From Candidatus Limnocylindrales bacterium (GTDB lineage: Bacteria; Moduliflexota; Moduliflexia; Moduliflexales; JAUQPW01), in contig DATMBG010000058.1 of assembly GCA_035559535.1 (NCBI GenBank), positions 248,001-312,000 of the forward strand: a DNA stretch of 64,000 nucleotides, written 5' to 3'. How positions within the stretch are numbered: the first letter of the stretch is position 1; each line of letters starts with the position of its first letter. A program made the position numbers and the translations under genes. Positions 31,598 to 50,075 of this stretch are shown here, in pieces. The notes under the pieces were generated by a model. That model did no database searches. It saw only the letters and a program-made list of their open reading frames with translations, and was not told where the DNA came from.

Positions 31598-31737
31598 GGC
31601 CTGTGGAAGTATGGGGGTGTAGGAGTGGGGAAGTAGGGGAGTGTGGGAGTTCTATTTCTTATACTTCTACTTTCATACCCCCATACCTCCATACTTTCAT
31701 ACCCCCATACTTCCCCACTCCCACACTCTCTTACATA
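31598..31737. repeat. Inverted word array (GGAAGTATGGGGGT / CCCCCATACCTCC), longest copy
   Basis: About 140 bases of degenerate GTATGGGGGTGTAGGAGTGG words on the left and CCCCCATACCTCCATAC words on the right. Two spurious ORFs run through it. Same word as at 14300, 16590 and 48303. Confidence 0.75.
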
Positions 31738-48302: not shown

Positions 48303-48415
48303 TTATAGGATGGAGGTATGGAGGTATATTCTCCCTCCTACACCTCTATACTCCCATACCCCCATACCTCCATACCTCCATACGCCCATACTCCCATACC
48401 CCCACACTCATCAGG
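48303..48415. repeat. Inverted word array (GGATGGAGGTATGG / CCATACCTCC)
   Basis: AGGATGGAGGTATGGAGGTA on the left and CTCCCATACCCCCATACCTC with further CCATAC words on the right, between the alcohol dehydrogenase and aldolase genes. Shares its word with 14300, 16590 and 31598. Confidence 0.75.
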
Positions 48416-49454: not shown

Positions 49455-49620
49455 ATGATGTCTCGCAAAGCTCACAAAGCCGCCAAGTTTTTGATTTTTC
49501 GCAATGTGGCCGACGTATTTTATCTAAACGGAAGCTATCTACTATAGGGATCTTCAACTCGAACTGACGATTTCTGCGGTATTGCGATTTTCTTTGCACC
49601 TTTGCGCCTCTGCGAAGGAT
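49455..49620. repeat. Inverted word array (CGCAAAGCTCACAAAG / CTTTGCACCTTTGCG)
   Basis: TCTCGCAAAGCTCACAAAGC at 49458-49480 is answered by TTTCTTTGCACCTTTGCGCC and TCTGCGAAGG at about 49588-49618. It lies between the dehydrogenase gene and tRNA-Sec. Confidence 0.55.
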
Positions 49621-49647: not shown

Positions 49648-49745
49648 TGGCGGGAATGTGTGGGAATCGAACCCACCGCGGACTTGATTAGAGCCCGCCA
49701 CTGGATTTGAAGTCCAGGAGGCCCACCAGGGACCTAGCCATTCCC
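49648..49745 (-). tRNA. selC: tRNA-Sec (anticodon UCA)
   Basis: Selenocysteine tRNA of 98 bases including an encoded CCA. The anticodon arm CTGGA-CTTCAAA-TCCAG gives UCA (plus-strand TGA at 49708-49710). The features special to tRNA-Sec are present: a 6-bp D stem (AGGTCC/GGGCCT), a long variable arm with a 7-bp stem (GCGGGCT/AGTCCGC), and a T arm GTGGG-TTCGATT-CCCAC. The acceptor begins GGGAATGG and ends ACATTCCC before the G discriminator and CCA, so seven pairs are perfect and the eighth is G/A. selA and selB are not in the window. Confidence 0.96.
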
Positions 49746-50075
49746 GCAGAGTTAATCATTTTACTACAATATAGACTTTGATCTTTATAGCTTGTCAATA
49801 GGTTTTTATTCTTCCCATGACCCGGGGTAAAAGCCTGGGAGCCAGATAAGAAGGGTAGCTCCAGTGGGGCGATCTGTTTACCAGAACGCTGCTACGGAGC
49901 TTAAAAAATTCTGGATTTCTGAAACCCTCGACGGAAGTTGAAGGTTACAGGTCGTTGGCTCCTGATTGGACTTTTACCCTTATCCTGGCGTGTATGGGGA
50001 AGGGGAGTAGGGTGGCGAGCCGCCCGCGTTCCCAGGCAATGGGGTCAAGCTTTTCTACCTTTTCCCGGCTTTCCA
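49746..50075. other. Gene-free gap with a GGCGAG..CGCC repeat
   Basis: No convincing gene. It holds GGTGGCGAGCCGCCCGCGTT followed by CCC (50011-50035), a palindromic repeat with a relative at 62671-62693. No integrase or attachment-site duplication is seen next to selC. Confidence 0.45.

Follow-up and report, generated by a model that had tools for sequence, protein, structure and literature searches.

A tRNA-Sec gene with a G·A eighth acceptor pair and the selenocysteine machinery encoded elsewhere in the genome

The bacterial tRNA-Sec is described with an 8+5 acceptor and T branch, as well as in a 7+5 variant, in the accessible part of PMC5330540, where no statement on the eighth pair was found. 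A long variable arm, in some cases together with a UCA anticodon, is also common to the allo-tRNAs and selC*-type tRNAs, which have a branch of 12 bp according to the portion of PMC7609411 available to us; in the same portion, the selC*-type tRNA-Cys is given a Cys (GCA) or UCA anticodon, U73 and an 8/4 branch with an A51a bulge, with selB* downstream in some groups. On the protein side, a table seen in PMC13188914 includes a Sec-containing peroxiredoxin (PF00578, TxxU) and a Prx-like thiol:disulfide oxidoreductase (UxxC). Here, we compare with these systems a tRNA-Sec gene (selC) found in a 64-kb window, which is the whole stretch of DNA analysed (contig C58:248001-312000 of genome G000). Our sample of the phylum consists of four genomes, G000 itself, one of the same genus (G001) and two of the same order (G002 and G003).

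Structure, surroundings and eighth acceptor pair of selC

The window contains a single tRNA, which was called tRNA-SeC (tca) by ARAGORN, and RF01852 is the only Rfam family to reach its gathering score within the 64 kb (74.5 bits compared to a gathering score of 47, E 2e-13). Together with the predicted fold, these matches confirm the identity that the original prediction had read from the UCA anticodon, the 6-bp D stem and the long variable arm, and they supply the strand, minus, which it had not given. The fold is a cloverleaf with a 7-bp acceptor, a 5-bp anticodon stem, a 7-bp variable arm and a 5-bp T stem, while the D stem of 6 bp is made up of 3+3 with one bulged U, and G73 is followed by CCA at the 3′ end. 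The acceptor and T branch comprises 13 positions (8+5), of which 12 are Watson-Crick pairs and the eighth is a mismatched G·A whose two bases are unpaired in the predicted fold. selC thus has the RF01852 score, the anticodon, the variable arm, the D stem and the G73 of a bacterial tRNA-Sec, as well as the CCA end and a 13-nt branch like the 8+5 branch of E. coli selC, and differs from this type in its G·A eighth pair and the one bulged U of its D stem.

The eighth pair had been read correctly as G/A, and was said to be unusual. A tally of tRNA-Sec genes contradicts the latter claim. RF01852 had matches in 52 of 97 genomes (62 rows), from which 45 rows were used and 17 weak rows (<54 bits) left out; removing one duplicate (the gene of G001, the same as that of G000), one tRNA-Cys and two rows that were not tRNA-Sec by ARAGORN gave 41 distinct tRNA-Sec genes, to which three more were added from SelA-bearing loci. 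With the T loop as the anchor, the eighth pair of these 44 genes is Watson-Crick in 19, G·A in 13, G·G in nine and A·A in three. Every mismatch seen is therefore purine-purine (25/44), and G·A is the commonest of them. The picture is similar without the seven rows whose acceptor is poorly registered (score 6 or less), where 15 Watson-Crick, 11 G·A, eight G·G and three A·A pairs were counted among 37 genes (purine-purine in 22 on a recount). Among the relatives, G·G occupies this position in the two order mates, G002 and G003. The G·A pair is common in this sample. It could still be imagined that selC is a special variant of tRNA-Sec peculiar to the lineage, with the G·A pair as its mark, given that position 8 of selC forms no Watson-Crick pair, but the 13 G·A genes come nearly all from different families and the order mates carry G·G, which makes such a variant highly improbable.

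The ORFs on either side of selC resemble an alcohol dehydrogenase and an amidohydrolase (both named by eye), and the gene lies between the same two ORFs in G001, where all 98 of its 98 bases are identical. In the 60 bases downstream, 56 are identical to G001, compared to 82 of the 100 alignment columns upstream, in which about 65 bases align closely and the alignment is poor beyond. The conserved upstream block contains two hexamers (Table 1) which, judged from their sequence, may be the selC promoter; they were picked by eye, and are absent from the output of a consensus scan limited to 16- to 18-base spacers.

Two repeats were observed in the neighbourhood. The CGCAGAGGCGCAAAG motif lies directly downstream of the tRNA, with an expected count in the window of 0.05, and the exact copy recurs next to selC in G001 but is absent from the other loci compared. 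An array of the 8-base unit ATACCCCC adjoins the dehydrogenase ORF. Repeats related to it occur elsewhere in the window, and the corresponding position in G001 (L053) has a similar shadow ORF rich in proline and histidine.

Table 1. Location of the features described here; positions given without a contig are those of the window, and U stands at an in-frame TGA
Feature	Location	Strand	Details
selC, tRNA-Sec	49648..49745	minus	UCA anticodon, G73, encoded CCA, eighth acceptor pair G·A (ARAGORN, Rfam, fold)
RF01852 match	49652..49745	minus	
Conserved upstream block, candidate promoter	49746..49813	minus	TTGACA 49798-49793, TATATT 49773-49768, spacer 19; well alignable with G001
CGCAGAGGCGCAAAG motif	49592..49614		one exact copy and one with 2 mismatches, overlapping
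ATACCCCC array	48348..48404		7.1 copies
Repeats related to the ATACCCCC array	31605..31714		
AhpC/TSA-family gene	C42		PAAFTKVU
AhpC/TSA-family gene	C44		NKTPGU
AhpC/TSA-family gene, ResA/TlpA-like	C32		WATWUGIC
AhpC/TSA-family gene	C10		LDWTPTU
AhpC/TSA-family gene	C22		LDWTPVU
Two-domain redoxin (L111)	G001 C64:21180-21527		UxxC (WYYGUPFC) in first domain, CxxC in second
CMD/AhpD-like match	G001 C83:73726-73926		one TGA inside
tRNA-Cys (L052)	G003 C16, L052:6009-6105	minus	97 nt, GCA, U73, tRNA-Sec-like long variable arm

Sel machinery and UGA-containing genes elsewhere in the genome

The original prediction had seen no selAB genes in the window and had concluded that the organism has selenoproteins elsewhere, and the search of the whole genome agrees on both points. 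selA (622.1 bits), selB (408.6 bits) and selD (388.6 bits) each score above their curated cut-offs, and all three lie outside the window, since they are located on contigs C43, C32 and C29. The three genes that together define the Sec-decoding trait are thus present in one genome. Neither a low covariance score nor a lack of selA or selB, the two outcomes named in the original prediction as counting against it, was observed. The C-terminal part of SelB retains winged-helix domains, and SelD carries the motif ECGGUAAKL with U at an in-frame TGA, and is therefore itself predicted to be a selenoprotein. As the assembly (5.6 Mb, 95.76% complete) consists of 58 contigs with 4.07% contamination, it is an assumption that the tRNA and the sel genes, which are spread over four contigs, belong to one organism.

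Five of the 14 AhpC-TSA matches in G000 contain one TGA inside the domain match, and similar genes occur in the relatives (6/22 in G001, 2/6 in G002 and 2/8 in G003). Four of the five proteins are peroxiredoxin-like and one is ResA/TlpA-like, with the TGA at the position of the expected active-site cysteine; a search with two of them, the C42 and C10 proteins, placed the UGA opposite a cysteine of the best-matching solved peroxiredoxin in each case. The TGA is retained in all five G001 orthologues (5/5), and the codons after the UGA show 76 synonymous and 16 non-synonymous differences between G000 and G001, with 17, 2 and 75 changes at codon positions 1, 2 and 3, these being sums over five genes that are not fully independent, since the C10 gene resembles the C22 gene. 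The TGA is kept throughout and the downstream changes are mostly synonymous, which makes read-through of the UGA very probable. Of the other conserved TGA frames next to these genes, most resembled frame shadows by eye.

The four proteins with U in a TxxU context score above the AhpC-TSA cut-off and are like the Sec-containing peroxiredoxin in the part of PMC13188914 seen. Unlike PrxU (NF040737), they reach 35.8 to 80.8 bits compared to a curated cut-off of 270, and were not filed as PrxU for this reason; the scores of all five proteins with this model are 67.3, 35.8, 29.4, 80.8 and 77.7 bits. The C32 protein resembles the Prx-like thiol:disulfide oxidoreductase of the same table and has ResA as its best NCBIfam match, at scores below the cut-offs of both ResA (120.9 against 170 bits) and WAxxUGC_long (59.2 against 300). 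A two-domain redoxin with a UxxC motif was also seen in G001.

Folding the 48 bases from the UGA in six genes of G000 gave weak z values (+0.1 to -1.7, mononucleotide shuffles) and no clear SECIS hairpin, with short hairpins formed after the UGA in SelD and in the C44 gene. Compared to G001, seven of 70 codons are changed in the first 14 after the UGA and 76 of 430 further on. This weak difference is in the direction expected for SECIS elements, yet constraint on the active site would produce it equally.

The tRNA, the three sel genes and the in-frame UGAs, followed in the five AhpC/TSA-family genes by codons under protein-level constraint, are all observed, and we consider that selC is a functional bacterial tRNA-Sec gene with its machinery and UGA genes elsewhere in the genome (probability about 0.96). 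By analogy with described bacterial systems, SerRS would charge the selC tRNA with serine, SelA would convert the seryl-tRNA to selenocysteine using selenophosphate from SelD, and SelB would deliver the charged tRNA to the in-frame UGA codons of SelD and of the five AhpC/TSA-family genes, presumably with SECIS elements in the mRNAs and a redox function of the products.

The long variable arm and the UCA anticodon would also suit an allo-tRNA or a selC*-type tRNA-Cys, which would insert serine or cysteine, rather than selenocysteine, at UGA. However, selC has a branch of 13 nt and G73, compared to the 12 bp and, for selC* tRNA-Cys, the U73 described in the accessible text of PMC7609411, and the genome has selA, selB and selD and its UGAs are at redox-active positions, so that we regard this possibility as very slight. 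That the lineage has lost the trait and selC is decayed or no longer used is the least probable of all, since selC, although unlinked to the other sel genes (which are on other contigs), is fully identical in the same-genus genome while the intergenic DNA further upstream diverges, and both the sel genes and five UGA genes under constraint are present. The selC gene is thus real but ordinary.

Other selenoprotein families and the relatives

Counts of TGA-containing matches were made for six families in addition to the selA, selB and selU searches. TGA was found in 0/7 matches of G000 to CMD (PF02627), in 0/1 to Rdx/SelW-like (PF10262) and in 1/10 to thioredoxin (PF00085), the latter being the C32 protein already counted. 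selU (TIGR03167) is above its cut-off in none of the four genomes of the phylum, with one weak match in G000 at 21 bits. A CMD/AhpD-like match with a TGA was noticed in G001. Sec-containing formate dehydrogenase often sustains the selenocysteine trait. The molybdopterin matches (PF00384) contain TGA in 0/9 cases in G000, 1/12 in G001, 0/1 in G002 and 2/3 in G003, with U in the motif U-H-S in the proteins of G001 and G003. The formate dehydrogenase of G000 does not appear to be a selenoprotein, and, since one is present in the same-genus genome G001, the absence of a Sec-containing one could be due to an assembly gap. Across the tested families, the selenoproteome consists of SelD and the peroxiredoxin- and thioredoxin-like proteins, SelD plus five being a lower bound, as only those families were covered.

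In the window itself, frames interrupted by a TGA were scanned for, with 10 or more codons required between start and TGA and 60 or more after it (limits at which a selenocysteine near the C-terminus would be missed); of the 21 candidates, none had a selenoprotein motif by eye, in line with the earlier impression that the window holds no recognisable selenoprotein.

A tRNA-Sec match above the cut-off is present in all four genomes of the phylum and selB in three of them, and the SelA comparison gives 'MAG: bacterium isolate JZ-2.bins.100.201901' (94% identity) as the nearest record with a name. The second G001 row of the selB search was EF-Tu by eye, and not selB. In G003 (contamination 11%), selB was not found, since the only row with E<1e-40 also reads as EF-Tu. 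This genome has UGA-containing formate dehydrogenases, SelD and AhpC-TSA genes, and its selB may have been missed through an assembly gap.

G003 also has a tRNA-Cys (L052) that scores 58.1 bits with RF01852 and adjoins genes named by eye as YedF-like, selD (with an in-frame UGA) and cysteine-desulfurase-like. Its anticodon and U73 are like those of selC* tRNA-Cys as far as the part of PMC7609411 seen goes, whereas it folds with a 6-bp acceptor and a 6-bp T stem, unlike the 8/4 branch given there. No selB* was recognised by eye among the ORFs of at least 100 aa in 12 kb around it.

Significance for the lineage

We put forward tentatively, as a joint proposal to which we give slightly less than even odds, that an eighth pair of two purines (G·A, G·G or A·A) is generally available as a structural alternative at the junction of the acceptor and T stems of bacterial tRNA-Sec, and that selenocysteine is retained in this lineage mainly for the chemistry of peroxides and thiols, by means of SelD and at least five AhpC/TSA proteins, with no recognised Sec-containing formate dehydrogenase in G000. 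The selC finding settles no long-standing question. The tally of eighth pairs corrects the impression that a mismatch at position 8 is odd, and selenocysteine machinery is documented in a sparsely sampled lineage, with four genomes for the phylum. The UGA genes listed here are candidates for re-annotation, as taking the UGA for a stop truncates or splits them.
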